Source: a virus
Strand: one strand, 5' to 3'
Virus record (IMG/VR): IMGVR_UViG_3300006928_000092
Coordinates: 1-23,375 of that record
Length of the DNA: 23,375 bases
This document shows, in pieces, positions 1,581-18,202 of this stretch (within the stretch, counting starts at the first letter, position 1; the number at the start of each line of letters is the position of its first letter). A program made the position numbers and the translations under genes. The notes under the pieces were generated by a model. The model had not been told where the DNA came from. It did no database searches and was given only the letters and a program-made list of their open reading frames with translations.

Positions 1581-1590
1581 GGAGGACACC

Positions 1591-2013
1591 ATGAACCCTG
1601 ATGACATTAAAACAACTGAAGATACTGCACCATCTAATATTGAACCTAATGATAAAGCTGAATGGGAAGCAGCTAAAGAAGCAGCTCCACATCCATTTGA
1701 AGGTAATATAGGTATTGGTGCAGAAACTGTTAACGGCAGTTTATCTAAAATATCTGATATGATTAACGATCAAATTAATCAAGAAGTTAGTTATATTAGA
1801 GAAAATATTATTCAAGAGCTTCAAGAAATACTTTACGATAAAATTACTGAAGCTAAAGACGAACTTCATTATCAAGTTACTCATGAAATATCAAAGAAAT
1901 ATAATATAAATGATGAAGATATAAGTATTATCTTAAAAGGTCATGAAGAATATAGTCTTGAAGATAGAATTGATGACGTAATTGAAATGGAAATGGAGAT
2001 TAACATTGGCTAA
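1591..2013 (+). CDS. Acidic, coiled hypothetical protein, 140 aa
   Basis: The ribosome binding site is near-perfect (AGGAGG). The protein has a disordered acidic/Pro N-terminal part (about residues 1-40), then long amphipathic helices (about 50-110: SKISDMINDQINQEVSYIRE and following) that could form a coiled coil. No catalytic motif or known domain is visible. Its last 8 nt overlap the TTG start chosen for the next gene. The strong ribosome binding site suggests it is among the better expressed early products. Function unknown. Confidence 0.6.
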   Translation: MNPDDIKTTEDTAPSNIEPNDKAEWEAAKEAAPHPFEGNIGIGAETVNGSLSKISDMINDQINQEVSYIRENIIQELQEILYDKITEAKDELHYQVTHEISKKYNINDEDISIILKGHEEYSLEDRIDDVIEMEMEINIG

Positions 2014-2167
2014 ATTAAAACCTCGTTTAAGTATTAATGATAAAGAGTTACTTTTTGATTTAATCGAACATCGTATATTTCTTCTTACAAGTAGAATTGA
2101 CAGTTCTGAAGAACCTGATGCAATTCATAATCTTGAAAAACTAAAAGATAAATTGGAGCAAATGTAA
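2006..2167 (+). CDS. Small hypothetical protein, 53 aa, TTG start
   Basis: I place the start at TTG 2006 rather than an earlier TTG at 1982, because GGAG at 1995-1998 sits 7 nt upstream of it and the 8-nt overlap with the previous gene fits local practice. The protein (MAKLKPRLSINDKELLFDL and onward) is helical with alternating charges, ending in ...KLKDKLEQM. No domain recognised. The next ATG overlaps its stop by one base. A start without ATG makes this gene easy to mis-annotate. Confidence 0.5.
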   Translation: MAKLKPRLSINDKELLFDLIEHRIFLLTSRIDSSEEPDAIHNLEKLKDKLEQM

Positions 2168-2325
2168 TGGAAGCGTTATTAAATAAGCTTGAATATCGTA
2201 TTAATGAATTACATTGGGACTGGGACAGATTATCTGATAGTGGTAGAGAAACTTTAGATAAAATGTACAAATTAATTAAAAAGATAAAAAAGATGAACAA
2301 TCGTCATATTATAGAGAAAGAATAA
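2167..2325 (+). CDS. Small basic helical protein, 52 aa
   Basis: The ATG shares a base with the preceding stop (TAATG), and the ORF ends 4 nt before the ThyA-family gene. The product is helical and basic (MEALLNKLEYRINELHWDWD then a Lys-rich tail with KLIKKIKKMNN). Length and helical heptad-like spacing resemble the preceding protein, so the two may be related or act together; this is inference. No known function. Confidence 0.5.
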   Translation: MEALLNKLEYRINELHWDWDRLSDSGRETLDKMYKLIKKIKKMNNRHIIEKE

Positions 2326-2329
2326 TCTT

Positions 2330-3127
2330 ATGGAAATCTATCCTAATGAAAGAGGCTATAAAAGAATAGTCCACGATATTATACATAATGGTAGTTATCG
2401 TGAAACTAGGAATGGTCATGTAAAATCTTTACCTAATCAAATCCTTAAAATTGATGGCTTAGATCATGGATTATTTCCAATAATAACAACACGTTACATA
2501 CATTGGCCGGGTATTCTTGGTGAGTATGCAGCTATTATAAGAGGTCCTAAAAATGTTGAAGACTTTGAAAAATGGGGCTGTAACTACTGGTCTTATCTCG
2601 GTGATGAGAACGGCAACCTTAATTTGGACTATGGTAATCTTTGGATTAATGCAAATGGTAAAAACCAAATGCAAGAAGTGGCTATGGCTCTTCGTAATGA
2701 TCCAAGTAGTCGTCGCATGGTTATTAGTGGATGGAATCCTGGTAAACAAGATGATCTTAGTCTTCCCTGTTGTCACTATTCTTACCAGTTTTGGCGCAAC
2801 GATGACTATTTGGATTTACTCTGGATCCAAAGATCTGGCGACTTTATGGTGGGGATTCCCAGTGATATGGTGTTCGCTGCTACTATGCTTTCTTGTTTTG
2901 CCTCTTATGCTTGCATTAAGCCTAGATCTATTACTATGATTATAGGTGATGCGCATGTTTATGAAGAGCATATGGAAACAGCTAAAGTACAACTCGATAA
3001 AGTATGGAGGCAACCTCCTAGATTTGAATTAAAACAACAATATGATATTCAAGGATTTCAACCTGAACATCTTGGAATATTTGATTATAAGCATAGAGGA
3101 AAACTAAATTATGTATTTAAACCGTAA
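2330..3127 (+). CDS. ThyA-family pyrimidine methylase/hydroxymethylase, probably dCMP-specific
   Basis: Member of the thymidylate synthase / dCMP hydroxymethylase family (folate-dependent C5 modification of pyrimidine nucleotides). Visible family residues: GE at 64-65 (E. coli ThyA Glu58), Tyr101, the phosphate-binding SRR at 127-129, catalytic Cys148 in PCCHYSYQF, RSGD at 168-171, and GDAHVY (His/Tyr pair binding the sugar). The residue that is Asn177 in ThyA, which selects uracil, is Asp179 here (GIPSD). In phage T4 dCMP hydroxymethylase the equivalent is Asp, and an Asn-to-Asp change in ThyA is known to shift preference to dCMP. So I expect dCMP as substrate, giving 5-hydroxymethyl- or 5-methyl-dCMP; which one cannot be told from sequence. 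265 aa is normal for the family. It overlaps the MazG-like gene by 17 nt. A plain thymidylate synthase is the alternative. Confidence 0.85.
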   Translation: MEIYPNERGYKRIVHDIIHNGSYRETRNGHVKSLPNQILKIDGLDHGLFPIITTRYIHWPGILGEYAAIIRGPKNVEDFEKWGCNYWSYLGDENGNLNLDYGNLWINANGKNQMQEVAMALRNDPSSRRMVISGWNPGKQDDLSLPCCHYSYQFWRNDDYLDLLWIQRSGDFMVGIPSDMVFAATMLSCFASYACIKPRSITMIIGDAHVYEEHMETAKVQLDKVWRQPPRFELKQQYDIQGFQPEHLGIFDYKHRGKLNYVFKP

Positions 3128-3566
3128 TAATTGGGTTGAAGATATCGCATTAATGCATGCAAAATATAAAGCAAAAGATTGGGTTAAAGATAAAGTATGT
3201 GAAGAAGATTATAAAACTTTAGATACTTTTCTTGCTCACAGAATAGACTTTTTAGAAGAAGAAGTAACTGAAACTGTAAATGCTTATGGTGATGGAGATG
3301 CTAAAGAAGTAGTTGACGGATTAATAGATACAATCGTCGTTGCTCTTGGTACTTTAGATTTATTTGGTGTTAACTCTGCAAAAGTTTGGGATGAAGTATA
3401 TCATTCTAATATGAATAAAGAAGTTGGTGTTAAAGAGTCTAGACCTAATCCACTTGGTGTACCCGATTTAATTAAACCTGAAGGGTGGGAGCCACCTAAT
3501 ATAGGAATAAAAGATTGTGGTATACTACCTGCAGTATTAACTTATGCAAGAAAATTAAAGGAATAA
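3111..3566 (+). CDS. MazG-like nucleotide pyrophosphohydrolase, 151 aa
   Basis: All-alpha NTP pyrophosphohydrolase family. The metal-binding pattern ExxE...ExxD is visible: Glu51-Val-Thr-Glu54, then Glu66-Val-Val-Asp69, followed by GLIDTIVVALG with Asp73. Such enzymes cleave (d)NTPs to (d)NMP and pyrophosphate. The C-terminal KPEGWEPPNI segment is common in phage members. The gene overlaps the end of the ThyA-family gene by 17 nt, so the products are probably made together. A plausible role, by analogy with T4 gp56 (an all-alpha dCTPase/dUTPase), is to turn dCTP into dCMP for the neighbouring enzyme; substrate specificity is inference. Confidence 0.7.
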   Translation: MYLNRNNWVEDIALMHAKYKAKDWVKDKVCEEDYKTLDTFLAHRIDFLEEEVTETVNAYGDGDAKEVVDGLIDTIVVALGTLDLFGVNSAKVWDEVYHSNMNKEVGVKESRPNPLGVPDLIKPEGWEPPNIGIKDCGILPAVLTYARKLKE

Positions 3567-5391: not shown

Positions 5392-5679
5392 ATGTCTAAA
5401 GTAACAGCAACTAAAATATTACAAGAAGCTATAGAACTTAAAGAAAAGAAAAGTAAAGATTATCAAGGATCTAAATGGTCTGAAGAAGATTATTTTCCAT
5501 TTGGAAATCAATCATATATGCATATGATACATACTAAATATTTACGTATGAGAAATTTGCTTGATAAACCAACTAAAGATGTAAACTTTGAATCACTTGA
5601 AGATACATTAACAGATATGGCAATTTATTGTGCAATGTTTCAAGCATATTTAGAGAACAATAGAAAGGAAACGATATGA
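5392..5679 (+). CDS. DUF1599-like (nucleotide modification associated) protein, 95 aa
   Basis: Matches the pattern of the DUF1599 family, named nucleotide modification associated domain 1: a K-x-x-D-Y-Q-G-x-x-W segment near the N-terminus (residues 22-29), F-G-N-Q-S (37-41), H-T-K-Y-L-R-M-R-N-L (47-56) and N-F-E-S-L-E-D-T-L-T-D-M-A-I-Y (65-79). The family is all-helical and has been linked by gene neighbourhood to phage DNA base modification; its chemistry is not established to my knowledge. It starts after an AAAGGTAGG-type ribosome binding site and overlaps the DNA polymerase start (ATGA), so the two are co-translated. This adds to the case for an altered nucleotide pool. Confidence 0.6.
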   Translation: MSKVTATKILQEAIELKEKKSKDYQGSKWSEEDYFPFGNQSYMHMIHTKYLRMRNLLDKPTKDVNFESLEDTLTDMAIYCAMFQAYLENNRKETI

Positions 5680-7502
5680 AACTCACGTTTGATATTGAAA
5701 CCGATGGGTTAGATGCAACTAAAATATGGTGTTTAGTTGTACAAAACATAGAAAGTAGTGGAGTATTTAAATTCACTGATGAAGATGATAAGTATCCTAG
5801 TATTGCTGATGGTCTTAGACTATTACAAGAAGCTGACTTACTAATTGCACATAATGGTATTGGCTTTGATGCATTAGTTATCTTAAAACTATATGGTATT
5901 AATTTATATCATAAAAAGTTTTTCGATACTTGGATTGCATCACAAGTATTAAATTATAAACGTCCACACAAACATGGTCTTGGTGGATGGGGTGAGTATC
6001 TTAAGTATCCTAAATTTGAATTTAGTGACTTTGATAATTACTCTGAAACCATGATGACATATTGTGCTAGAGATGTTAAAGTAAATACTGTTATCTTTCA
6101 TAGACTAATGAAAGAGCTTGAAGTTATTAGAGCAAAACAACCTTTAATAAGTAAAGGTTTATCTTCTGAAATGGAGGCAGCTAAATTTGATGCATACTGT
6201 AGACACTATGGATGGGCATTCAATCAAGATAAAGCTTTGATTTTGTTAGATAAAATTAAAAGTAGGATGTCTACTATAGAAAAGATAGTTGAACCTAAAT
6301 TACCTGCTGTTACACGCTTAATAGATAAGGCACCTAAGATTCCTAAGTTTACTAAGAAAGGATATTATACTGCAACAACTGCACGTATATTAAGTGAGTA
6401 CCTTAATAAATCTATTAAAGTAGAAGACATATATGCATGGCCTGCTGGTAAAGAGTTTCAACGTAAAGTTACTATGCCTGCTAACTTAGGAAACCTAGAA
6501 CAAGTTAAAGAATATTTATATTCTATTGGCTGGGTACCTGATGATTGGAAAATGGAAAGATTAGGTAGAGAGTTTATAAAGAAAACTCCTAAGTTAACTA
6601 AGACTTCTTTAGAAAAAGTTGGTGAGCATGGTATTCTTATTAACGAATGGACTACACTTAGATCACGTCGTGGTGTTGTTGAAGGTTGGTTAAGAGATCT
6701 AAAAGATAATAGATTACATGGTAAACTTTGGGTTGTAGGTACTCCTACATTTAGATGTCGTCATGAAGTTATTGCTAATCTTCCTGCAGCTGATGCTGAA
6801 TTAGGTAAAGAGTTACGTGAATTACTTATCGCTGAACCTGGAAGAAAGATTGTAGGTGCTGACTCTAGTGGTAATCAATTCAGATCCTTAGCTCATTATG
6901 TTAAAGATGATAATCTTACTAATCAAATTATGAGTGGTGATATACATCAATATAATGCAGACATTATTGGAACTGATAGAAGAACTGCTAAGACTTGGAT
7001 CTATGCATTTCTATTTGGTGCTGGTGCTACTAAACTTGGTAAAGTATTAACAGGTGTTAGTAATATTAAGAGAGGTAAAGAATCAGTAGCTGCTTATGGT
7101 GATGCTATTCCTGGATTAAAATCTTTAAAAGAAAAGATAGAAAATATCTGGACAACAACTGATAATCAAAGTACAGTTGAAGGATATATTCCTGGATTAG
7201 ATGGTCGTAAAGTTTATACACCACAATCTTATCAGACTTTAAATTATTTATTACAAAGTTGTGAAGCTATTACAACTAAATCTGCTTTAGCTTATCAACT
7301 TAAAAAGATTAAAGAAGAAAACTTAGATGCTCAACCTAGACTTTATTATCATGATGAAGTTGCTTGGTCTGCCTCAGATAAAGATGCAGATAGAGTATTA
7401 GAAATTCTTGTTGAATCATTTGCTGAAGGACCTAAAGAAGTAGGTGTTAATATTATGGCAGGTGAAGGTACAATCGGTAATAACTATGCGGAGGTTCACT
7501 AA
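5676..7502 (+). CDS. Family A DNA polymerase (T7 gp5-like), 608 aa
   Basis: Replicative polymerase with proofreading. Exonuclease motifs: Asp6-Ile-Glu8; NGIGFD with Asp65; Tyr130...Asp134. Polymerase motif A: DSSGNQFR at 396-403; motif B: KTWIYAFLFG from Lys439; motif C: HDE at 559-561. In motif A the usual Glu (E. coli Glu710, T7 Glu480) is Gln401. In motif B the Phe762/Tyr526 position is Tyr443, and the following conserved Tyr (T7 Tyr530) is Phe447. At 608 residues it is about 100 shorter than T7 gp5, so it may lack a full thioredoxin-binding insert. Its start overlaps the DUF1599-like gene and its stop shares a base with the next ATG, so it is part of the replication operon. Confidence 0.95.
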   Translation: MKLTFDIETDGLDATKIWCLVVQNIESSGVFKFTDEDDKYPSIADGLRLLQEADLLIAHNGIGFDALVILKLYGINLYHKKFFDTWIASQVLNYKRPHKHGLGGWGEYLKYPKFEFSDFDNYSETMMTYCARDVKVNTVIFHRLMKELEVIRAKQPLISKGLSSEMEAAKFDAYCRHYGWAFNQDKALILLDKIKSRMSTIEKIVEPKLPAVTRLIDKAPKIPKFTKKGYYTATTARILSEYLNKSIKVEDIYAWPAGKEFQRKVTMPANLGNLEQVKEYLYSIGWVPDDWKMERLGREFIKKTPKLTKTSLEKVGEHGILINEWTTLRSRRGVVEGWLRDLKDNRLHGKLWVVGTPTFRCRHEVIANLPAADAELGKELRELLIAEPGRKIVGADSSGNQFRSLAHYVKDDNLTNQIMSGDIHQYNADIIGTDRRTAKTWIYAFLFGAGATKLGKVLTGVSNIKRGKESVAAYGDAIPGLKSLKEKIENIWTTTDNQSTVEGYIPGLDGRKVYTPQSYQTLNYLLQSCEAITTKSALAYQLKKIKEENLDAQPRLYYHDEVAWSASDKDADRVLEILVESFAEGPKEVGVNIMAGEGTIGNNYAEVH

Positions 7503-7963
7503 TGATTAAAAATATTACAGTAACTAAAGATTTTATTGATCAACGTGATGCTCGTGCTGAGAAGTATAATCCTAATGGAAGAACACTTGAAAGATTAAAG
7601 CTTGATATTGAATGTGAAGTTTATGAGTGGGCTATGATTAAAGAGAATCATTGGGAAGAACATCCTTCTTGGAAAGTTGATGGTGTATTTAAAGGTATTA
7701 ATATAGATGTAAAGTTTATTAAAACCTGGTATAATATATCTCCAAAGAAAATGGTTTACTTATTACAGCAAAGAGATACTACACATGAGTTCTTTTTCTG
7801 TGAGTGGGATTCAAGACCTGAACGTTTATTAAAAGCCGGTGATAAAGTTAAAGTAAATTCACTTGGTATATTACCATACTGGCGTTTAATTGATATAATA
7901 AAACCCTCTAAGTTTAACGGATTTTATGCAGATGTAAGAAAGGAATTACAAAATGCAAAATAA
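7502..7963 (+). CDS. Candidate PD-(D/E)xK-type endonuclease, 153 aa
   Basis: Lies between DNA polymerase and exonuclease, where T7-type phages place nucleases. The sequence PSWKVDGVFKGINIDVKF (about residues 58-75) has the arrangement of a nuclease core: Asp60, a short hairpin, then Asp-x-Lys (IDVK); an upstream acidic helix (ECEVYEW) could supply the Glu. It does not resemble T7 gp3 endonuclease I beyond this. The ribosome binding site GGAGG precedes an ATG that overlaps the polymerase stop. The call rests on motif spacing and position; an unrelated function is possible. Confidence 0.5.
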   Translation: MIKNITVTKDFIDQRDARAEKYNPNGRTLERLKLDIECEVYEWAMIKENHWEEHPSWKVDGVFKGINIDVKFIKTWYNISPKKMVYLLQQRDTTHEFFFCEWDSRPERLLKAGDKVKVNSLGILPYWRLIDIIKPSKFNGFYADVRKELQNAK

Positions 7964-8768
7964 AATTATTAATATGTTTGTAGATACAGATTCTATATTC
8001 TTTAAGATTGCTTACAATTCTAAAACTCAAAATGAATTACGCAAAAACTTTAATAGTTTTTGTAGAACTATGGAGTTAGCAGTTAAAGAAAAATTAACTA
8101 ATCCTTTTGATGAAGAAGAAAAATTCTCTGTGCTATATGCAATTAAAGGTTTAAATAATTTTCGTAAAGAATTATGTGGTGACTACAAAGCTAAACGTCC
8201 TGAGTTAGATAAAGATATAAGAGATAAATTAAATTTCTTACATAAACATGCACTAAAGAAAGGTGCTGTTGAAGCTACTGGTATGGAGGCTGATGACTTA
8301 GTTTCTATATGGGCGTATGAAGCAAGAGAAAATAAAGAACAATATGTAATATGTGGTATTGATAAAGATCTATTACAAATTCCTGGTAATCATTACAATT
8401 ATAGTAAAGATACCTGGCAATTTATAGATGATGAGACTGGACATTATAACTTAATGTTACAATGTTTGACTGGTGATTCCACTGATAATATCATGGGTCT
8501 AAAAGGTATTGGTCCTAAGAAAGGTGCTAAACTTCTTGAAGGAGTTTCAAGTGCATCTCAATGGGATAAGGTACAAGACTTATGGAAAGAACATGGATAT
8601 GATCATGCTCAATGTCTTATGAGTTATAACCTATTACGTATGTTAACATCATGGAAAGAATATGAAGATATTAAATCATACATTCAAAATAAAACCTCTG
8701 TCCGCAAACCAAATGACGTACAGAAACAAAGCGATAAAGCAGATAAAGTATCTGAATTATCAAAATGA
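7953..8768 (+). CDS. 5'-3' exonuclease (FEN/T7 gp6-like), 271 aa
   Basis: Flap-endonuclease/5'-3' exonuclease fold. Metal-binding residues are visible: Asp11 and Asp13 (FVDTDSIFF), the basic arch NFRKELCGDYKAKRP (69-83), Glu112/Asp114/Asp115 (GMEADDLVS), Asp137/Asp139 (GIDKDLL), GDSTDNI (174-180) followed by a helix-hairpin-helix GLKGIGPKKGAKLL (182-195). In T7, gp6 removes RNA primers and degrades host DNA. It overlaps the upstream gene by 11 nt. Its last 35 codons, a Lys/Asp/Ser-rich low-complexity tail, are shared in another frame with the start of the RusA-like gene. Confidence 0.92.
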   Translation: MQNKIINMFVDTDSIFFKIAYNSKTQNELRKNFNSFCRTMELAVKEKLTNPFDEEEKFSVLYAIKGLNNFRKELCGDYKAKRPELDKDIRDKLNFLHKHALKKGAVEATGMEADDLVSIWAYEARENKEQYVICGIDKDLLQIPGNHYNYSKDTWQFIDDETGHYNLMLQCLTGDSTDNIMGLKGIGPKKGAKLLEGVSSASQWDKVQDLWKEHGYDHAQCLMSYNLLRMLTSWKEYEDIKSYIQNKTSVRKPNDVQKQSDKADKVSELSK

Positions 8769-9042
8769 ATTGAGAGATGAAATGAAGGGGGTGGCTTGGC
8801 CATTCTCTTCTAACCCTGTTTCATTTGAAATTACAGCAGGATTCTCTAATAAATCTTCTGACTTAGACAATGTAATTAAACCCTTATTCGATACTTACCA
8901 AGGTATCTTTGAAGAGTTCAATGATAATAAAGTTTATTACGCTGAACTACATAAAAAGATTGTACCTAAAGGTGAAGAGTATTTGAATGTTAAAGTGAAA
9001 GAATTTTTAGATGACAAGATACAAACAAACGGAGTGCCCTAA
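8662..9042 (+). CDS. RusA-family Holliday junction resolvase, 126 aa
   Basis: The catalytic segment fits RusA: DLDNVIKPLFDTYQGIFEEF (67-86) with Asp67, Asp69 and Asp77, then DNKV with Asp88, and the strand ending YLNVKVKEF. RusA enzymes cut four-way junctions as dimers. T7 uses gp3 for this; here RusA may replace it for resolving branched replicative DNA before packaging. The ATG at 8662 lies 107 nt inside the exonuclease gene; I accept it because the first 40 residues (with KPLSANQMTYR) look like the RusA N-terminal strand and loop, and GGAAAG sits just upstream. It overlaps the primase start by 32 nt. Confidence 0.8.
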   Translation: MKILNHTFKIKPLSANQMTYRNKAIKQIKYLNYQNELRDEMKGVAWPFSSNPVSFEITAGFSNKSSDLDNVIKPLFDTYQGIFEEFNDNKVYYAELHKKIVPKGEEYLNVKVKEFLDDKIQTNGVP

Positions 9043-10633
9043 GTGCGATTCATCAGATGCCTTTACAATTTATGATGATGGTGCTTATTGTTTTTCCTGT
9101 AATTATTCTACTAATAAAATTAATAATAACAATAACTTAACTGAAGAAAGTCAAACTAATATGATAAGAGATGACGAAGAAATAAATGACTTGAATAGTT
9201 TCCCAATTACTTCAAGAGGAATTTCCAAACAAGTGGTTGATCACTTTGGAATTAAGATGTCGGTTAATCCTGACGGTTCACCTGGTTCTCACTTCTATCC
9301 ATACACTAATAAGTATGATGGAAAAGTAATTGCATGGAAAGAAAGAAAGTTACCTAAAGATTTTATAGTTCATGGTAACTTTACTAACATAGAATTATTT
9401 GGTCAAGCCGCTGCTAATAATATTAGTGGTAAGACACTTGTAATAACTGAAGGTGAACTCGATGCTTGTGCTGTAGCTCAGGCATTCTTAAATAAATATA
9501 ATAAAATATATCCAGTAGTATCTATTCCTAGTGCATCAGGATATAAAATATTATTAGAGCAAAGAGAATGGGTTCAGAAATTTGAATCTGTTATATTATT
9601 CTTTGATCAAGATGCTGCTGGTAAAACAGCAACAGATAAAGCAGCTAAGATTATCGGTGCTGGTAAAGCAAAGATAGCTAAGCTAACAGAAAAAGATCCT
9701 TGTGATCAGCTCTTAAAGCATGGTCATGATAGTTTAATTAAAAGCTATTGGAATGCACAGACCTGGTCTCCCGCTGGTATTGTAACTGGTGAAGCAATAT
9801 GGGAACAGTATAAAGAACGACAAGCTGTAAAGTCTATTCCTTATCCTGATTGTTTGCAAGGATTAAATGATAAACTAAAAGGAATAAGACATGGCGAGAT
9901 TACGTTATTCACATCTGGTACTGGCTCTGGTAAAAGTACTGTTGTCAAAGAGATTATCCTGGAATTACTTCACAAGACTGAGGATAAGATTGGTCTCATA
10001 TCTCTTGAAGAAAGTGTCGGTGATACAGCCGAAAAATTCATTCACATGGTACTTAAACGGGAAGTCGGATCTACTCTGGCAGCTAAGGACCAAGAACGAA
10101 CAGCTTACATGGAAGTATTTGGCAATGAAAGACTTGTACTCCTCGACCATCAAGGATCTGTCGGTGACTCTTCGCTGATAGATAAGATAGAATATATGTG
10201 TCTTATGGGTTGTAAGTATTTAATCCTAGATCATATAACAATCGCTGTTTCAGAAGGAACTGAAGGACTATCCGGTAATGAAGCAGTTGATAAAGTAATG
10301 AGTGACTTACTTAAGATTGTAAAGAAGCATAACATTTGGTTGTGTTTAATCTCTCACCTAAGAAAAGCTCCTGGCGGAGGAACATCTTTTGAAGAAGGTA
10401 AACTTGCATCAATAGATGACATCAAAGGTAGTGGTTCTATTAAGCAGATCTCATTTGATATAGTTACATTTGCTAGAAATCTGGTATCTGAAAATGAAAC
10501 CGAACGTAATACCATTAAGTTTAGAGTACTTAAGTCTAGGTTTACTGGGCTTACGGGATCCGCTGGAGCAGCTGTTTACGATAATAAGACTACAAGGTTA
10601 ACAGCTGTAGGTACACACTTCACGGAGGTCTAA
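9011..10633 (+). CDS. Primase-helicase (T7 gp4-like), 540 aa
   Basis: Bifunctional replication protein. N-terminal zinc ribbon: Cys9-Pro-Lys-Cys12 and Cys27-Phe-Ser-Cys30. TOPRIM primase core: EGELD at 147-151 and Asp199-Gln-Asp201. C-terminal RecA/DnaB-type helicase: Walker A GTGSGKST at 303-310, LISLEE (motif 1a), Walker B ending LILDH with Asp407, and the LISHLR and SIKQISFD segments of motifs 3 and 4. It should form a ring that unwinds DNA and makes RNA primers for the upstream-encoded polymerase. The ATG overlaps the RusA gene by 32 nt and has no strong ribosome binding site, so translation is probably coupled. Length is close to T7 gp4 (566). Confidence 0.93.
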   Translation: MTRYKQTECPKCDSSDAFTIYDDGAYCFSCNYSTNKINNNNNLTEESQTNMIRDDEEINDLNSFPITSRGISKQVVDHFGIKMSVNPDGSPGSHFYPYTNKYDGKVIAWKERKLPKDFIVHGNFTNIELFGQAAANNISGKTLVITEGELDACAVAQAFLNKYNKIYPVVSIPSASGYKILLEQREWVQKFESVILFFDQDAAGKTATDKAAKIIGAGKAKIAKLTEKDPCDQLLKHGHDSLIKSYWNAQTWSPAGIVTGEAIWEQYKERQAVKSIPYPDCLQGLNDKLKGIRHGEITLFTSGTGSGKSTVVKEIILELLHKTEDKIGLISLEESVGDTAEKFIHMVLKREVGSTLAAKDQERTAYMEVFGNERLVLLDHQGSVGDSSLIDKIEYMCLMGCKYLILDHITIAVSEGTEGLSGNEAVDKVMSDLLKIVKKHNIWLCLISHLRKAPGGGTSFEEGKLASIDDIKGSGSIKQISFDIVTFARNLVSENETERNTIKFRVLKSRFTGLTGSAGAAVYDNKTTRLTAVGTHFTEV

Positions 10634-11103
10634 TGACTACATCTCAAAACGAAAAGCAATATAGATATGACTGTTTATATATTGATATTGCTTTACGTAT
10701 TAGTAATATGTCGCATGATACTGAGAGGAAAGTAGGTGCTGTAATAGTTAAAGATAATAATATACTTGCGTTTGGATTTAATGGTATGCCAGCTGGTATG
10801 ACTAACGAATGTAAGCACTCTAGTGGTGCTACTAAAAAAGAAGTTATACATGCTGAAGCAAATGCAATATGTAAATTAGCAAGAAGTGCAGGACATGCAG
10901 AGGGTGCCACCTTATATAGTACTCTCTCACCTTGCATAGATTGTGCTAAACTTATACTACAAAGTGGTATAATAAAATTTGTATACTGTGAACCTTATGA
11001 ATTTGATGAAGGTATATTATTATTACATGAAAATAAGGTAAAGATAAACCATATAGATAGAAGGAAAGAGTATGGAGACTCAGCTAAAGTATCTAGAAAA
11101 TAA
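10633..11103 (+). CDS. dCMP deaminase, 156 aa
   Basis: Zinc-dependent cytidine/deoxycytidylate deaminase fold: His73-Ala-Glu75-Ala-Asn and Pro100-Cys101-x-x-Cys104-Ala-Lys. The length and the NxFGFNGMPAG segment fit phage and bacterial dCMP deaminases. It converts dCMP to dUMP, feeding dTTP synthesis. With a dCMP-specific ThyA-family enzyme encoded in the same genome, the two would compete for dCMP, as in phage T4. Ribosome binding site GGAGG; the ATG shares a base with the primase stop; the end overlaps the RNA polymerase gene by 32 nt. Confidence 0.9.
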   Translation: MTTSQNEKQYRYDCLYIDIALRISNMSHDTERKVGAVIVKDNNILAFGFNGMPAGMTNECKHSSGATKKEVIHAEANAICKLARSAGHAEGATLYSTLSPCIDCAKLILQSGIIKFVYCEPYEFDEGILLLHENKVKINHIDRRKEYGDSAKVSRK

Positions 11104-13267
11104 AATTGGAAAGTCTAAAGCTCATATCGCTTGTAATCTATTAAAAGAAATTTCTTCTGATAGTATTAAAGCATACCTTGTATTTGCAATGGACACTATC
11201 CAACAACACTTTACTAGAAATAGTACACGTGGAAATAAATCATATCAAGGTGAAGCTAACTTAACTCATTTAAGTATAGCAGTTGGTTCTTTTATATTAG
11301 ATGATATTAAATATGCTAATAAAGACCACGCACCTTGGGATTGGTTTAGACTAAGAGCAATGATGGGAGACCTGTTCTTAGAAGCATTCTATCAAACACA
11401 CCAAATTAATATAGGTAAAACTAAAGACGGAGAGTTTATACCTGTAGAAAAGTTGGATCGTAGTTTGAAAAGAAGTCGTGCTCATTATATAGTTGTTCCA
11501 GAAAAGTGGGATCTTATTATACCTGATGGTAGAAGAGATCTACTTAGAGGAACTACATTTGAAATACCATTAGATATTAATAGTCTTATCCAACCTGAAA
11601 CTTTAAAGCCTGTTATTAAAGGCTGGGATTATAGTAGAAGATCTGAATTTAATAAGCATCTTCATCATAATTTTATAAAGAGTATGAATGTTTTACAACA
11701 GACTGGTTGGAAAATTAATACAAGAGTAAGAAGTATATTACATCGTAATAAACATAAACTTTTAGATCAGTATAAATCTTTTAAGAAGAAATATAAATCA
11801 AAAATAATTGAATTTGATTTGACTATGGCAAGAGCTGACTTAATAAAAGATGATACCTTCTATCAGTATGTTGAAGCTGATTACCGTGGTAGAATATATT
11901 ATACGACACCATTCTTAAACTTCCAAGGAAATGATTTAGCCAGAGGACAAATGCTTTTTGCAAAAGGTAAAGTCATGACTGAGGAAGGTTTAAGAAGGTT
12001 AAAGATTCATGTTGCTTGTGCATATAATGAAACGTTTCATAAAGATAATCTACCTGAATGGTTGTTTACTGATTATAAACCGTACTTAATAGAAGAAGGT
12101 TTAGAAGATATATCAGTAGATAAAATGAAGTTAGAAGATCGTGAAGCCTGGACTGATAATAATATAGAGTTTATATTTAAGATTGCTAAAGAAGAAATCG
12201 TAGATTCTAATGCAGAAAAACCTGTATCATTATTAGCTGCTGCTTTAGAAATATATAATGCAACAGAAACTGAAGGACCTTATATAACTTACCTTCCTAT
12301 TCCTATTGATGGTAGTAATAATGGATGGCAACATCTATGTGCTATGTCAAAAGATAAAGAGGCAGGTGAATTAGTAGGAGTTGTTCCGCAAGATATTCAA
12401 AAAGATTTCTATGTACAATGTGCAAAGAATCTTATTAAGAAAGTACCTGAATGGTTTGAAGAAAGACAAATCCCTATGAAGCATATAAGAAAAGGAATTA
12501 CTAAACGTGGTTCAATGACTAGAGCTTATAGTGCAGGTGCATTAAAGATTGCAGAGAATATGTATCTTGATTGTCATGTGGAAGGATACTTAGAAAAGTA
12601 TAATATAACTGAGGAAGATTGCGTCATGCTTGCTAGACAACTAGTTAAAGCTATTGACGAAGTTTGTGCTGGTCCATTGCAAACTATGAAATTCTTACAG
12701 AAAATTGCTGAAGCAGAGATAGCATCTGAGTATGCTAAAAATAGTAAGCAGAAATCTATAAGATGGACAACACCGTCAGGGTTCCCAGTAATTTATGAAG
12801 CATTTACTGAGAATGAATTTAAAGAAAAAGCTATCATTAGTTGTAGTGAAAGAAAGATTAAGCCAACTATTCTTAAAGAAGATGGGTCAAAGGAAGAGAC
12901 AGATACTATAAGAATCCAACACGTTGGTAAAGAACCTACAGACAAACCAAAGATTAGATCTTTTATGTCTGGTATCTCTCCTAACTTTGTGCACTCTATG
13001 GATGCTGCACATATGGCTAATGTAATCTGTGAATGGGAAGGGGATTTTGGCGCGGTCCATGATTCCTATAGTGTCCACGCATGTGATGTTGATAACCTTT
13101 TACAGTTAATAAAAGATAAATTTATTAAGATGTATAGTTATCAAAACTTCTTTGATGTCATTGAGAAAATGATCATAACGAATCCTGATAATTTCAACTA
13201 TCGGCAACCTAGAATAGGCGAATTAAATATTAAGGAGGTACAAAATAGTGACTACTTCTTCGCGTAA
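11072..13267 (+). CDS. T7-type single-subunit RNA polymerase, 731 aa
   Basis: DNA-dependent RNA polymerase for phage middle/late genes. Signatures: DYRGR with Arg274 (T7 Arg425); motif A IPIDGSNNGWQHL with Asp413 (T7 Asp537); motif B KRGSMTRAY with Lys478 and Tyr486 (T7 Lys631/Tyr639); motif C VHDSYS with Asp664 (T7 Asp812); and the C-terminal foot ...YFFA as in T7 (FAFA). It is about 150 residues shorter than T7 RNAP (883), the difference lying before Arg274, that is, in the N-terminal promoter-binding part. It may therefore recognise promoters differently, or need a partner as N4 RNAPII does. The start follows AGAAGGAAAGAG and overlaps the deaminase gene by 32 nt. Confidence 0.95.
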   Translation: METQLKYLENKIGKSKAHIACNLLKEISSDSIKAYLVFAMDTIQQHFTRNSTRGNKSYQGEANLTHLSIAVGSFILDDIKYANKDHAPWDWFRLRAMMGDLFLEAFYQTHQINIGKTKDGEFIPVEKLDRSLKRSRAHYIVVPEKWDLIIPDGRRDLLRGTTFEIPLDINSLIQPETLKPVIKGWDYSRRSEFNKHLHHNFIKSMNVLQQTGWKINTRVRSILHRNKHKLLDQYKSFKKKYKSKIIEFDLTMARADLIKDDTFYQYVEADYRGRIYYTTPFLNFQGNDLARGQMLFAKGKVMTEEGLRRLKIHVACAYNETFHKDNLPEWLFTDYKPYLIEEGLEDISVDKMKLEDREAWTDNNIEFIFKIAKEEIVDSNAEKPVSLLAAALEIYNATETEGPYITYLPIPIDGSNNGWQHLCAMSKDKEAGELVGVVPQDIQKDFYVQCAKNLIKKVPEWFEERQIPMKHIRKGITKRGSMTRAYSAGALKIAENMYLDCHVEGYLEKYNITEEDCVMLARQLVKAIDEVCAGPLQTMKFLQKIAEAEIASEYAKNSKQKSIRWTTPSGFPVIYEAFTENEFKEKAIISCSERKIKPTILKEDGSKEETDTIRIQHVGKEPTDKPKIRSFMSGISPNFVHSMDAAHMANVICEWEGDFGAVHDSYSVHACDVDNLLQLIKDKFIKMYSYQNFFDVIEKMIITNPDNFNYRQPRIGELNIKEVQNSDYFFA

Positions 13268-13786: not shown

Positions 13787-16700
13787 TTAATTTGCAAGAT
13801 TGACATTTAATGTACTCCCTAATCCTTGTTTCTTTAATTCACTAATTATTATTGCTCTTCTTTCTTTTAAATCTTTTAATGCTTTATCATTTCTTCTTTT
13901 TAAATCTAATCCTTGAGGACCTACAATAATTTTTAAGATCTTTTTAATATCACCTTTTGTTAAAGAAGTTGTTGGTGGTATTGTCTTACCATTTATAGTT
14001 CTAGGCATTGGCGAAAGATTATAACCAGCCATATTAATTAATGATTCAATACGGTTTGCTATTATAAAAGATCTTTTATTTTTTTCACTTGTAAAATCAG
14101 CAACAGTCATAAGTTTATTTTTACCTACAACTTCTGAAGGTGCTAAATCCATTACTCTTTTTACAATAGTTTGTAAATGTTTAGAGGCTTTATCCATATC
14201 TCTTTTAGATCGTCCTTCTGGTCCTGGAAAGATATGTCGTATACCTCTATAATCTATACCAAGATTTCCCCATGCTTCATGAAAAGATTTACCACCCATT
14301 TCAACGACAGTATTATCATCATTTGCTTTTTGATTAAGTAAATCTAATTGTTTATTACCCCATTCTAAAACTTGTTCGCTATCTCTAGATTCTATTAATG
14401 ATTGTTCATGATGTATATTCATTTCTTTACGAATAGTTCTAAAAGTACCTAAGTCTGTCCATACTGCATCAAAAAGTGGTGATATAAATCCTTGATTAGC
14501 ACCTCTTTCCTTAGCCTTTGTATGTATTTTAACCCAAGAATTTCCAGTAAATGATCTACCAATCATATTACCATCTTTACTTTGAGTGATAGTTGCTAAT
14601 AAACCTCCAGCTGTTTCTCTTCCAACTTGTTCCATCCCATCTCTTTCTACGATAGCTGCTGCACTTGGTACAGATCTATATAGTTCTACAGATTGTTGTC
14701 TTTTAGTTTTTCCTACAGCAAGACCTGTTAAGGCTCCACCTTCATCTCTTATATCCATAAGAATTCTAGGAAATTCTTTTCCCCAAACACCTTTATCTTG
14801 GTTATGTGTTAGCTTCATTCCTTTAGTATTTATTAATTGTTGAAAAGCTTCAGGGTTTTGTGCAAAACTTCGACGTATAATCTTTTCCATTAATTTAATA
14901 TTATAATTATTTTCTGTCTTAGCTTTCTTACCTACAAACTTTGAACCATCTTTCCAAGGTTTACTATATGTTGCTTCATCAAACTTTCCACTTTTATGAC
15001 TTTGATATGCATGCTCTACAGATTGAAATACTCTACCATTCTCTCCTTCAAAAGGTCTTTGTGCAAGGTTACTTAAGACTGCAGCTTCATTAGTTCCATG
15101 CCAAATATTAAGTGATCCTCTAGGATTTTCTCTTAACTCAGGTTCACTCATAGTATAATGCGCTTGCTTACGTTCATCTAAAGAACTTTCTTTTCCACTA
15201 ATCCAAGATGTAAATCCTAAAGAGTTTACAAACTTTATAGGTTGATCTGTTAAGATTGCTAACTGTGCATTTGTTTTTAATACCTGATTTATTTGAATTG
15301 TTTCTGGATCAAAAGTTTGATAAATAGAATCAACTAATATACTATGTAAAAATTCTATAACATCCTTTTCTTTTAATGCATTAGCAGATATTATATTACC
15401 AATATCTTTTGAGACTGGACTATTCTTTATAGTAATTCCTACATATTGTTTTAAAGATTCTAATTCTTGTCCATATCCCATAGTCATTGGGGATTTCTTT
15501 AAGAAGTTTGCAGTATCTTCAACTGCCTTCTTTAATATTTCTTTATACATAGGTTGTTGATTAATAGGAATCTCTAATCCATCTAACAATAAATTAAATC
15601 TATCCAGCATTGAATCTTTCATAGCAAATCTTAGATCTTGAAAATCCATTAGCTCTGCAGCAGCAGTAGTATCTGGTATTAATACCCCTGCTCTTTTTGC
15701 AATAGCTACACTACCTAAAGCCATCGCCATAGTAGCAGGACCATGAGTTTTACCATCTATCTCTACACCAATATTAGTCTTATGTATTGTTCCTGCTTTT
15801 CTAGCTTGATCCCACTTAGCTAAGTCCATAAGATAATCCATAAGTAGAATTACTTCTTCTTCATGACCATCAAGATAAGTCATTAGTGCTGGGTTCTTTG
15901 CAAGAAAATTATTATTAAAGTTTTGTTTTATTGAAGCCTTTACTCGATTTTCTTTTTCTTTATTTGATGGAGTAACCGCAGCTTTTGCAAAATTATGAAA
16001 GCTTTTTAATATTGCTTTAGCATTATTAACATCAAAGTTTTCTAAGTTTTCTAATAAATAATTTCCCCATCCTACTTTTTGTTTGTATTCTTCAGAGTCA
16101 ATTGATTGTTTAAATATTTTAATTCTTTCTTCAGCTGATCGTGCCTGTCTATATCGCTTTTTAAATTCTCCTTCAAAGAAGAAAGCAGACATAATCTCCA
16201 TCCAATCTTTCTCTGTTTCACTATTACCATTTGGAGTAAACTGATAGCTGTTACCACCACCTACTACAAATCTAATTAGTTTATGTGCTTGAGGATTATA
16301 TAAAGTTTGTTGTGCATGAATTCTACCAGTCAATGCTTGAATAGCAAAAGTTAAATGATTCTCTCGTCCACTATATTTTTGTATTGCATTTGCTACATTT
16401 ATAAACTTCTCTTGGTTTTCTCTAAGTATAGCTTGTGGATTATACTCTTCAGCTAGTTGATAAAGTCGTTCAGCTTTTTCACTATGACCTGCTTCCTCTG
16501 CCATTTTAGCATTTAAAAATAGTAATTCTTTTTCATTATGTAAATCAGCTAATTGATGTGCACCTATTTTAAATTGCTTAGCAAAGAAGCTATTAGGATC
16601 TATATCCCCACCTATTATTGGTACATCATGACCATTAAAAGCTAAGAGCACAGACCATAGAGCTATCTTTTCTCTTCGAGGATCATTAACATATTTTATT

Positions 16701-18202
16701 CTATTCATATTTTCTACAGCTTGATCAAGAATATGCCTTGTAGTTCCAGGTAAATCTGTTAAACTTCCTATTTTACTTGTCATATTTCTAGTAAGTACTG
16801 CTTGCTCAGTTACCTTATGACCCCCTTCACTTCTTGCAGAATCAGGTTCTACTTCTGGTTGGGAAAATAATCCAGGCATTCCCTGTCTTAATCTTGAAAA
16901 TTGTAAGATACCTTCAGGTGTAATTTGAAATACAGTTTGTCTATTTACTTTTTCAGGTAGCTCTTTAAATAAATTTGAGTTTGCTCTTGAATATAATCTT
17001 GCTACCATATCTCCTAGCATAACAAAAACATCAGGAGATAACTCTTGATAGTCTCTTAAATAAAAGTCTTGTGGTAAGCCTTGTTTATCTGCTTGAAATC
17101 TTTTCCATTCTTGATAAACACCTCTTCCTACTTGTTCAGACATTTCAGTTTTCTTTAAAGTAGGTAGCTTATTTAAATCTTTTATCTGCTCAATTTCTTG
17201 TACTACACTTTTAGGATCTGCATCAAATAACTCTAGCTGTTTATCTGCGTCTCCATTTAATCTCTGATGTAAAGCTTGAGTTGGTGTGATCCCTTTTTCT
17301 GCTGAATCTTTTTGTGCAGCAAACATTTCATCTACAAGAAACTGTTCCATTGCTAATGACATTATATATGGTAAGTCTGGATCAACATCTATATTACCTT
17401 GTTTATCTATTGCAGTTGCATTTAATATTTGACTATGATATGCAACAGCTTGTGCTGTAAGATTAACTTGAGATCCTCTTGTTATAGGTACATCTGGATT
17501 TAAAACATTACCTTCATTATCGATGTTTACAAAACCAGTATCAGTAACAGGAAGTCCAGTAGTCTTATCAATTCTACGTTCTTCTAATATACCAGGATGC
17601 TGCTCTTGAAATTCTTTAATACTTAATGGTGATAACCCTTGTTGTTTTCTTTCATTATTAATTGCATAAAATTTTTGAGTAGCTTCTTGTCCACCTGCCC
17701 ATCTAATATTACCAGTCATAGATAAACCTAGAGCTTTAAATATACTTGCAGAGTTAGATGCTCTTCTTCTCATATTATCAAGTGCCGTTATAAGATATTT
17801 TGGTAATACGTTAGGATCATATTTATCAGATTTCTGGTAGTCTCTTATTGCTTTAATTTTAGAATACATACCTTTAATATACTGATTCTGTTTATCTATA
17901 CGATCAGCATTAATTGTAGGTATTTTTCTTTCGGTTACACCAGTTTCATCTAATTCAGATGCGCCAGTAGTAACTTCATCAGTACCTGCTACCTCTTCAG
18001 TAGGAGCTGCTTCAGATTCTTTTATCTGTTCTTCTTTAAGTGTAAAAGGAGTTTCAATTTCCTGTTCTTGCTGTGCTTGATTATCTTCTTGAAAGAATTC
18101 TAATTGTTTATCACTTGCTGTTCCTAATTTATCGGCTAAGGTTTCTGCAGGTAAATCAATTGCTGCTTTCATATCTGCATCAGTTGTAATCTTAACACTC
18201 AT
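13787..18202 (-). CDS. N4-type virion RNA polymerase-like protein with embedded NADAR domain, 1471 aa
   Basis: Large late-module protein. Single-subunit RNA polymerase signatures occur in order: LTGRIHAQQTLYNPQ with Arg627 (T7 GRVYAVSMFNPQ, Arg425); motif A GVEIDGKTHGPATM with Asp816; motif B KKSPMTMGYG with Lys902 and Tyr910, keeping the 8-residue Lys-Tyr spacing of T7 KRSVMTLAYG; a plausible motif C SPLFDAVWTDLGTFRTIRKE with Asp1245, having Phe where T7 has His. Between B and C, residues about 1029-1155 form a NADAR (YbiA-like) domain: WHGTNEAAVLSNLAQRPF, SVEHAYQSHK (Glu1063) and VWGKEF (Trp1140). The first 100 residues are acidic and disordered; residues up to about 480 are unassigned. Like N4 vRNAP it would be packaged and ejected to transcribe early genes; packaging is inferred from neighbours. 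Ribosome binding site GGAG; 5 nt after the 1376-residue gene. Confidence 0.8.
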   Translation of the reverse strand: MSVKITTDADMKAAIDLPAETLADKLGTASDKQLEFFQEDNQAQQEQEIETPFTLKEEQIKESEAAPTEEVAGTDEVTTGASELDETGVTERKIPTINADRIDKQNQYIKGMYSKIKAIRDYQKSDKYDPNVLPKYLITALDNMRRRASNSASIFKALGLSMTGNIRWAGGQEATQKFYAINNERKQQGLSPLSIKEFQEQHPGILEERRIDKTTGLPVTDTGFVNIDNEGNVLNPDVPITRGSQVNLTAQAVAYHSQILNATAIDKQGNIDVDPDLPYIMSLAMEQFLVDEMFAAQKDSAEKGITPTQALHQRLNGDADKQLELFDADPKSVVQEIEQIKDLNKLPTLKKTEMSEQVGRGVYQEWKRFQADKQGLPQDFYLRDYQELSPDVFVMLGDMVARLYSRANSNLFKELPEKVNRQTVFQITPEGILQFSRLRQGMPGLFSQPEVEPDSARSEGGHKVTEQAVLTRNMTSKIGSLTDLPGTTRHILDQAVENMNRIKYVNDPRREKIALWSVLLAFNGHDVPIIGGDIDPNSFFAKQFKIGAHQLADLHNEKELLFLNAKMAEEAGHSEKAERLYQLAEEYNPQAILRENQEKFINVANAIQKYSGRENHLTFAIQALTGRIHAQQTLYNPQAHKLIRFVVGGGNSYQFTPNGNSETEKDWMEIMSAFFFEGEFKKRYRQARSAEERIKIFKQSIDSEEYKQKVGWGNYLLENLENFDVNNAKAILKSFHNFAKAAVTPSNKEKENRVKASIKQNFNNNFLAKNPALMTYLDGHEEEVILLMDYLMDLAKWDQARKAGTIHKTNIGVEIDGKTHGPATMAMALGSVAIAKRAGVLIPDTTAAAELMDFQDLRFAMKDSMLDRFNLLLDGLEIPINQQPMYKEILKKAVEDTANFLKKSPMTMGYGQELESLKQYVGITIKNSPVSKDIGNIISANALKEKDVIEFLHSILVDSIYQTFDPETIQINQVLKTNAQLAILTDQPIKFVNSLGFTSWISGKESSLDERKQAHYTMSEPELRENPRGSLNIWHGTNEAAVLSNLAQRPFEGENGRVFQSVEHAYQSHKSGKFDEATYSKPWKDGSKFVGKKAKTENNYNIKLMEKIIRRSFAQNPEAFQQLINTKGMKLTHNQDKGVWGKEFPRILMDIRDEGGALTGLAVGKTKRQQSVELYRSVPSAAAIVERDGMEQVGRETAGGLLATITQSKDGNMIGRSFTGNSWVKIHTKAKERGANQGFISPLFDAVWTDLGTFRTIRKEMNIHHEQSLIESRDSEQVLEWGNKQLDLLNQKANDDNTVVEMGGKSFHEAWGNLGIDYRGIRHIFPGPEGRSKRDMDKASKHLQTIVKRVMDLAPSEVVGKNKLMTVADFTSEKNKRSFIIANRIESLINMAGYNLSPMPRTINGKTIPPTTSLTKGDIKKILKIIVGPQGLDLKRRNDKALKDLKERRAIIISELKKQGLGSTLNVNLAN

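Follow-up and report, generated by a model that had tools for sequence, protein, structure and literature searches.

The locus described here raises the question of which nucleotide a phage-encoded ThyA-family enzyme acts on, and what it makes, when the residue that recognizes uracil has changed from Asn to Asp. The gene lies in IMG/VR virus record IMGVR_UViG_3300006928_000092, which was analyzed over its whole length of 23,375 bases (hereafter, the window); the record is listed as linear and is therefore possibly a fragment. An earlier note on this DNA had pointed to an Asp that the protein shares with T4 dCMP hydroxymethylase, and had predicted that the enzyme acts on dCMP, so that the phage DNA would contain modified cytosine as an anti-restriction trait.

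The open reading frame encodes a full-length, stop-terminated protein of 265 aa that matched PF00303 (5e-54) across residues 10-261. The gene and its key codons are located as follows.

2330..3127, plus strand: ThyA-family enzyme, predicted dCMP C5-methyltransferase of the LPCCH clade (PF00303, residue alignment, AlphaFold2)
2762..2764, plus strand: codon of Leu145, at the position of T4 gp42 Asp145 and E. coli ThyA Leu143 (alignment)
2771..2773, plus strand: TGT codon of catalytic Cys148, the second Cys of LPCCH (alignment and direct codon reading)
2864..2866, plus strand: GAT codon of Asp179, the pyrimidine selector position (alignment and direct codon reading)

The window protein was aligned with E. 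coli ThyA, T4 gp42 and SPO1 gp29. Asp179 corresponded to E. coli Asn177 and T4 Asp179, Cys148 to E. coli Cys146 and T4 Cys148, and Arg128/129 to E. coli Arg126/127, which bore out the earlier reading of an Asp selector together with a retained catalytic Cys and phosphate Arg pair. Other residues of thymidylate synthase (TS) were also retained, namely Arg27, Glu65, Trp87, Tyr101, Leu145, His149, Arg168, Ser169, Asp171, His209 and Tyr211, and the equivalent of E. coli His147 was His. The C-terminal tail was present and aligned with the E. coli C-terminus. At E. coli Trp83, the solvent-gating position, which is occupied by Val85 in T4, the window protein has Leu, and within the clade described below only L002 and L003 share this residue. 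The AlphaFold2 model had a pLDDT of 93, and in a fold search with this model the top 50 PDB matches were all thymidylate synthases, T4 dCMP hydroxymethylase not being among the 50 matches listed; all that the search contributes is that the modeled protein appears TS-like. By profile, catalytic Cys, Arg pair and fold, the protein belongs to the PF00303 superfamily, and it lacks the Asn of canonical dUMP-directed enzymes. As the earlier note had anticipated, automatic annotation calls it thymidylate synthase: it scored 118.2 bits with the NCBI profile of that name, TIGR03284 (cut-off, 108.35). Comparison with the L002 gene gave a dN of 0.09 against a dS of 0.47; the gene is under purifying selection.

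A tblastn search against 50,697 phage records returned best matches of 38-47% in Pelagibacter phage Kolga, Vibrio phage VPMS1, Edwardsiella phages KF-1, IW-1 and ETP-1, Pseudoalteromonas phage PH1, Dickeya phage Amaethon and two Manatee Spring podovirus genomes. Beyond this group the matches fell to about 32%, and those sampled had Asn at the selector. Scans of viral contigs yielded 37 loci and then 80 (of 144); the closest relatives, from other metagenomes, were 84% and 82% identical and both had Asp. The selector was Asp in all of the distinct clade sequences compared (72/72) and Asn in six of six N-type controls (E. coli, a Bacteroides phage, a T5-like phage, an Arthrobacter phage, phi3T and SPO1). 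The search seed patterns excluded the selector residue and included the LPCCH motif, so that the invariance of this motif is partly by construction. Two contigs with genetic code 25 (Gracilibacteria bins), read directly, also had Asp at the selector. Because Asp179 recurs in the clade, in the code-25 contigs and in the closest relatives, it is not a sequencing error or a chance substitution. The clade members in Gracilibacteria-binned contigs (L131, 7980-8777; L133, 8001-8777) each contain 16 in-frame TGA codons, read as Gly under table 25, and their carriers are probably phages or prophages with the code of the host.

In a maximum-likelihood tree of 49 sequences, the clade formed a single group with 100/100 support and stood outside both the T4-type and the Xp12-type groups, which likewise have Asp at the selector; the Xp12-type group (AXL1, Tedan, JWT and RcRudolph) was also supported at 100/100. 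The separateness of the clade is settled, whereas the tree does not fix the number of separate Asn-to-Asp changes, some outgroup branches being long and the root arbitrary. The annotation of clade genes reads thymidylate synthase, with a single "pyrimidine hmase" among them. In L104, a single 567-aa frame at 1583-3283 (+) joins a 5'-3' exonuclease to a D-type ThyA protein, which may reflect either a genuine fusion or a misassembly.

The Asp selector is common to enzymes with different products. In T4 dCMP hydroxymethylase, the water that attacks is activated by Asp145, located at -3 of the catalytic Cys, and Ser94 lies two residues before Tyr96; the D145N mutant formed zero 5hm-dCMP, TS enzymes have Leu at this position, and the T4 enzyme is without the C-terminal tail of TS (PMC6400193). 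The residue at -3 of the Cys was Asp in the hydroxymethylase-type proteins of T4, an Aeromonas T4-like phage, Microbacterium phage Cheeto1 and SPO1, whereas it was Leu in N-type TS, Asn in AXL1 and Leu in the window protein and its whole clade (72/72, the motif being partly the search seed). At the position of Ser94, the window has Leu99 (in Leu99-Asp100-Tyr101), and Leu, Ile or Val was found in 71 of 71 clade members having that column (Ser in 0/71), followed by an invariant Asp that is absent from E. coli ThyA and T4 gp42. The window protein therefore has the selector of a hydroxymethylase, but neither Asp or Glu at -3, nor Ser or Thr before the Tyr, nor the loss of the tail; an Asp selector without an acidic water-activating residue at -3 is the arrangement of the Xp12-kind methyltransferase. 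Asp179 was accordingly dropped as proof of 5hmC, because the T4 signature residues (Asp145 and Ser94) are absent from the window protein and the clade. The N177D mutant of E. coli TS and the N229D mutant of Lactobacillus casei TS shift their preference to dCMP and form 5mdCMP (as cited in PMC8670742). With the His147 equivalent retained, the clade would in effect be the natural counterpart of these mutants. Two residues count against a methylase. MetaGPA found Asp177 associated with DNA modification among environmental phages, where the residue at E. coli His147 tended to differ (PMC8670742), and the clade retains His, which would speak against this reading; the Leu in place of Trp83, close to the Val85 of T4, could make water attack easier. 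The Cheeto1 gene (L138, 1480-3648), annotated as "Thymidylate synthase", shows every residue of the T4 signature (Asp at -3, Ser and the Asp selector), and a glycosyltransferase lies three genes on; Cheeto1 is likely a glycosylated-5hmC phage with its enzyme annotated as TS.

The window also encodes replication, transcription and nucleotide-metabolism genes.

3111..3566, plus strand: MazG/PRA-PH-type NTP pyrophosphatase (NTP-PPase; PF01503, 5.6e-10; EExxE and ExxD motifs conserved)
5392..5679, plus strand: Nmad1-like protein (DUF1599, nucleotide modification associated domain 1; PF07659, 1.4e-4, just under the cut-off)
5676-7502: family-A DNA polymerase
7953-8768: 5'-3' exonuclease
9011-10633: primase-helicase
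10633..11103, plus strand: dCMP-deaminase family protein (PF00383, 2.6e-23; phrog_174, 1.2e-51)
11072-13267: single-subunit RNA polymerase

Two very large proteins are encoded on the opposite strand. A RusA-like resolvase frame at 8662-9042 (+) overlaps the end of the exonuclease frame by 107 bases. A NADAR-like (YbiA-like) domain at 14774-15091 (-) occupies residues 1038-1143 of a 1471-aa protein (13787-18202), with a match under the Pfam cut-off (E 2.1e-4); YbiA proteins are also encoded by phages AXL1 and DLP4 of the 5mC group. The window has a GC content of 32% and is depleted in CpG (observed/expected 0.45), a figure for the window alone. The window counts of 4-mer palindromes and the CpG ratio gave no clear signal, host controls being absent.

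The first 17 bases of the NTP-PPase gene also form the end of the ThyA-like gene. Of 18 related records, 17 had a PRA-PH match, which lay immediately downstream of TS in 13 of those, and an iterative profile over more loci left this pattern unchanged. With its EExxE and ExxD motifs, the product has the marks of an all-alpha NTP-PPase, and it is predicted to hydrolyze dCTP (perhaps dUTP) to the monophosphate. A cyanophage MazG hydrolyzes dGTP and dCTP (as cited in PMC9038755). The nearest PDB structure to the window NTP-PPase is the MazG-like DR2231, a solved relative that gives no established dCTP preference, which would count against the methylase reading. Nmad1-like genes adjoin TS in many relatives. 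In AXL1, gp64, beside the TS gene, has an NTP-PPase as its N-terminal half and a homolog of the window Nmad1-like protein as its C-terminal half, although Pfam scores only the first half; likewise, the two halves of phrog_18404 match the two window genes respectively. The deaminase family gene was found in 14 of 18 related records. The companion set of NTP-PPase, Nmad1 (below the Pfam cut-off) and deaminase is thus present in the window and equals that of the Xp12-like phages, and therefore supports modified cytosine; the window module matches that of a 5mC phage group.

Methylation produces DHF and requires DHFR, whereas hydroxymethylation produces THF (PMC6400193). In L004-L006, L010, L016-L021 and L103, the D-type gene has a DHFR gene as its immediate neighbor, which fits methylation because this reaction generates DHF. 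Those of the DHFR-adjacent relatives that were placed in the tree fall in the 12-row subclade of the window, L103 excepted. DHFR was not found in the 23.4-kb window fragment, and it is absent from most relatives too, which counts against the methylase reading.

The strongest competitor is a T4-like dCMP hydroxymethylase, which would make 5-hydroxymethyl-dCMP and give virion 5hmC, possibly further decorated. The shared Asp179 and the Leu in place of Trp83 would suit it, as would the adjoining MazG-type gene, given that T4 has a dCTPase that such an NTP-PPase would parallel. Against it stand the missing signature residues, the retained tail, the DHFR genes beside relatives' enzymes and the position of the clade outside the T4-type group. 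In addition, a search of 20 records found neither a GT2 glycosyltransferase nor a carbamoyltransferase (GT2 being the glycosyltransferase family covered). We therefore regard hydroxymethylation as unlikely. As to the earlier prediction, its first part, action on dCMP leading to modified cytosine, is well supported by the invariant Asp179 and the gene neighborhood, whereas the analogy with T4 gave way on the residues, the tail and DHFR; the note had itself allowed 5hmC or 5mC. 5-methyl-dCMP is the likelier product, and the prediction of T4-like 5hmC should give way to one of 5mC.

The deaminase allows a further explanation, that of a reversed thymidylate supply in which methylation of dCMP comes first and dTMP or dTTP then arises through deamination of 5-methyl-dCMP or 5-methyl-dCTP, with DNA modification partial or absent. 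Besides the deaminase gene itself, each of the related records searched had a single PF00303 match and none had ThyX, so a second TS was not found, and the order DHFR-TS-deaminase occurs as an operon in L016 and L018-L021. DCTDs accept 5mdCMP, and Xp12 obtains dTTP by deaminating 5mdCTP (PMC12088426). However, no deaminase was detected in Kolga, VPMS1 and two other related records, which nevertheless keep the ThyA-like enzyme and the NTP-PPase; the adjoining NTP-PPase and Nmad1 genes suit nucleotide replacement better; and in Xp12 this route coexists with full 5mC. It is improbable as the main role of the enzyme. Matches of an iterative profile just upstream of TS in L034 and L101, taken as deaminases, were rejected: that of L101 (2116-2490) is a dGTP_diPhyd_N (PF18909) domain standing alone upstream of the ThyA gene, and that of L034 aligns with it. 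The Kafunavirus-like relatives L040, L043, L044 and L134 have the deaminase fused to a PF18909 domain; PF18909 was assigned by Pfam in L043, L134 and L101 and by alignment in L040, L044 and L034.

An ordinary thymidylate synthase acting on dUMP despite the Asp is very improbable, for although the remaining TS residues are all retained, annotation profiles name TS and dUMP could come from the deaminase, Asn177 is the established uracil determinant, Asp there favors dCMP, and a divergent clade has Asp throughout, with Asn in every N-type control.

We therefore favor, as reasonably likely, a dCMP C5-methyltransferase that feeds 5mC into phage DNA and belongs to a clade distinct from those of the T4 and Xp12 enzymes. 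Its substrate is very probably dCMP, its product is probably 5-methyl-dCMP, and incorporation into DNA seems, with somewhat less assurance, to be its main purpose. With the uracil-selecting Asn changed to Asp, the enzyme would bind dCMP, and Cys148 would attack C6; the methylene group would come from methylene-tetrahydrofolate and would then be reduced by hydride transfer, as in ordinary TS, to give 5-methyl-dCMP and dihydrofolate. The MazG-type NTP-PPase would probably convert dCTP to dCMP, both feeding the substrate and excluding plain dCTP from replication. 5-methyl-dCMP would be phosphorylated and the 5-methyl-dCTP used by the phage polymerase, so that virion cytosine would be largely or fully 5-methylcytosine and would resist many restriction enzymes; the anti-restriction role proposed by the earlier note is a reasonable inference. 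The encoded deaminase may convert dCMP or 5-methyl-dCMP to thymine precursors. A bolder and rather unlikely proposal is that the clade is a third separate dCMP-directed ThyA lineage in small marine and freshwater phages, including the SAR11 phage Kolga and the Gracilibacteria-bin phages (TGA = Gly), in which genomic C is replaced by 5mC and, via the deaminase, thymine is drawn from the same 5-methyl-dCMP, one methylase supplying both pyrimidines.

The kind of system is already known, and MetaGPA had tied Asp177 to modified DNA, with residue 147 tending to differ. In the literature searched, no published description of the LPCCH clade was found, and a search for restriction or base-composition data for KF-1, VPMS1 and pelagiphage Kolga yielded nothing useful. 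The carriers include cultured phages of Edwardsiella, Vibrio, Pseudoalteromonas, Dickeya and Pelagibacter. If the clade consists of dCMP methylases, 5mC-substituted genomes would be far commoner in small aquatic phages than the few chemically characterized cases imply, which would bear on restriction, on host range and on virome studies of methylation by short-read or enzymatic methods. The residue at -3 of the Cys (Leu, Asn or Asp) would offer a simple rule for predicting 5mC or 5hmC from sequence.

Among known systems, the Xp12 type was represented by AXL1, to which Xp12 is reported to be closely related and whose enzyme is gp63. Xp12 DNA has 5mC in place of C (PMC7653180); for AXL1, the published evidence is of restriction resistance (PMC9206674). 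The window shares with this type the ThyA fold, the Asp selector, a non-acidic residue at -3 and the NTP-PPase, Nmad1 and dCMP deaminase genes, with DHFR in some relatives. It differs in its separate clade (100/100), in its motif (LPCCH, with Leu at -3 and His at +1, versus N-[VI]-P-C-P, with Asn at -3 and Pro at +1) and in having NTP-PPase and Nmad1 as two genes instead of one fused protein. With T4 gp42 it has in common Asp179, Cys148, the Arg pair, the Glu, the Tyr and the His/Tyr ribose residues, whereas equivalents of Asp145 and Ser94 are missing, the tail is retained and the two are distant in the tree. All examined catalytic and folate-side residues of E. coli ThyA except the selector and Trp83 are shared, with a full-length fold match (TM about 0.91, predicted model); the window protein differs in Asp for Asn177, an additional Cys before the catalytic one, Asp for Val93 and a tail that ends in YVFKP (LK[EA] in most relatives) instead of PVAI. 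The MilA CMP hydroxymethylase, to which the earlier note had also looked for comparison, shares the Asp selector, but its ribose-associated Lys133 and Ala176 (PMC5175136) are replaced by Arg128 and Ser169, as in deoxynucleotide enzymes; the window protein is not MilA-like in this respect, and these residues predict a deoxynucleotide over a ribonucleotide substrate. The engineered N177D and N229D enzymes carry one identical switch in a TS active site that retains His147, and differ in that they are laboratory mutants, whereas the phage clade exists in nature and has diversified.
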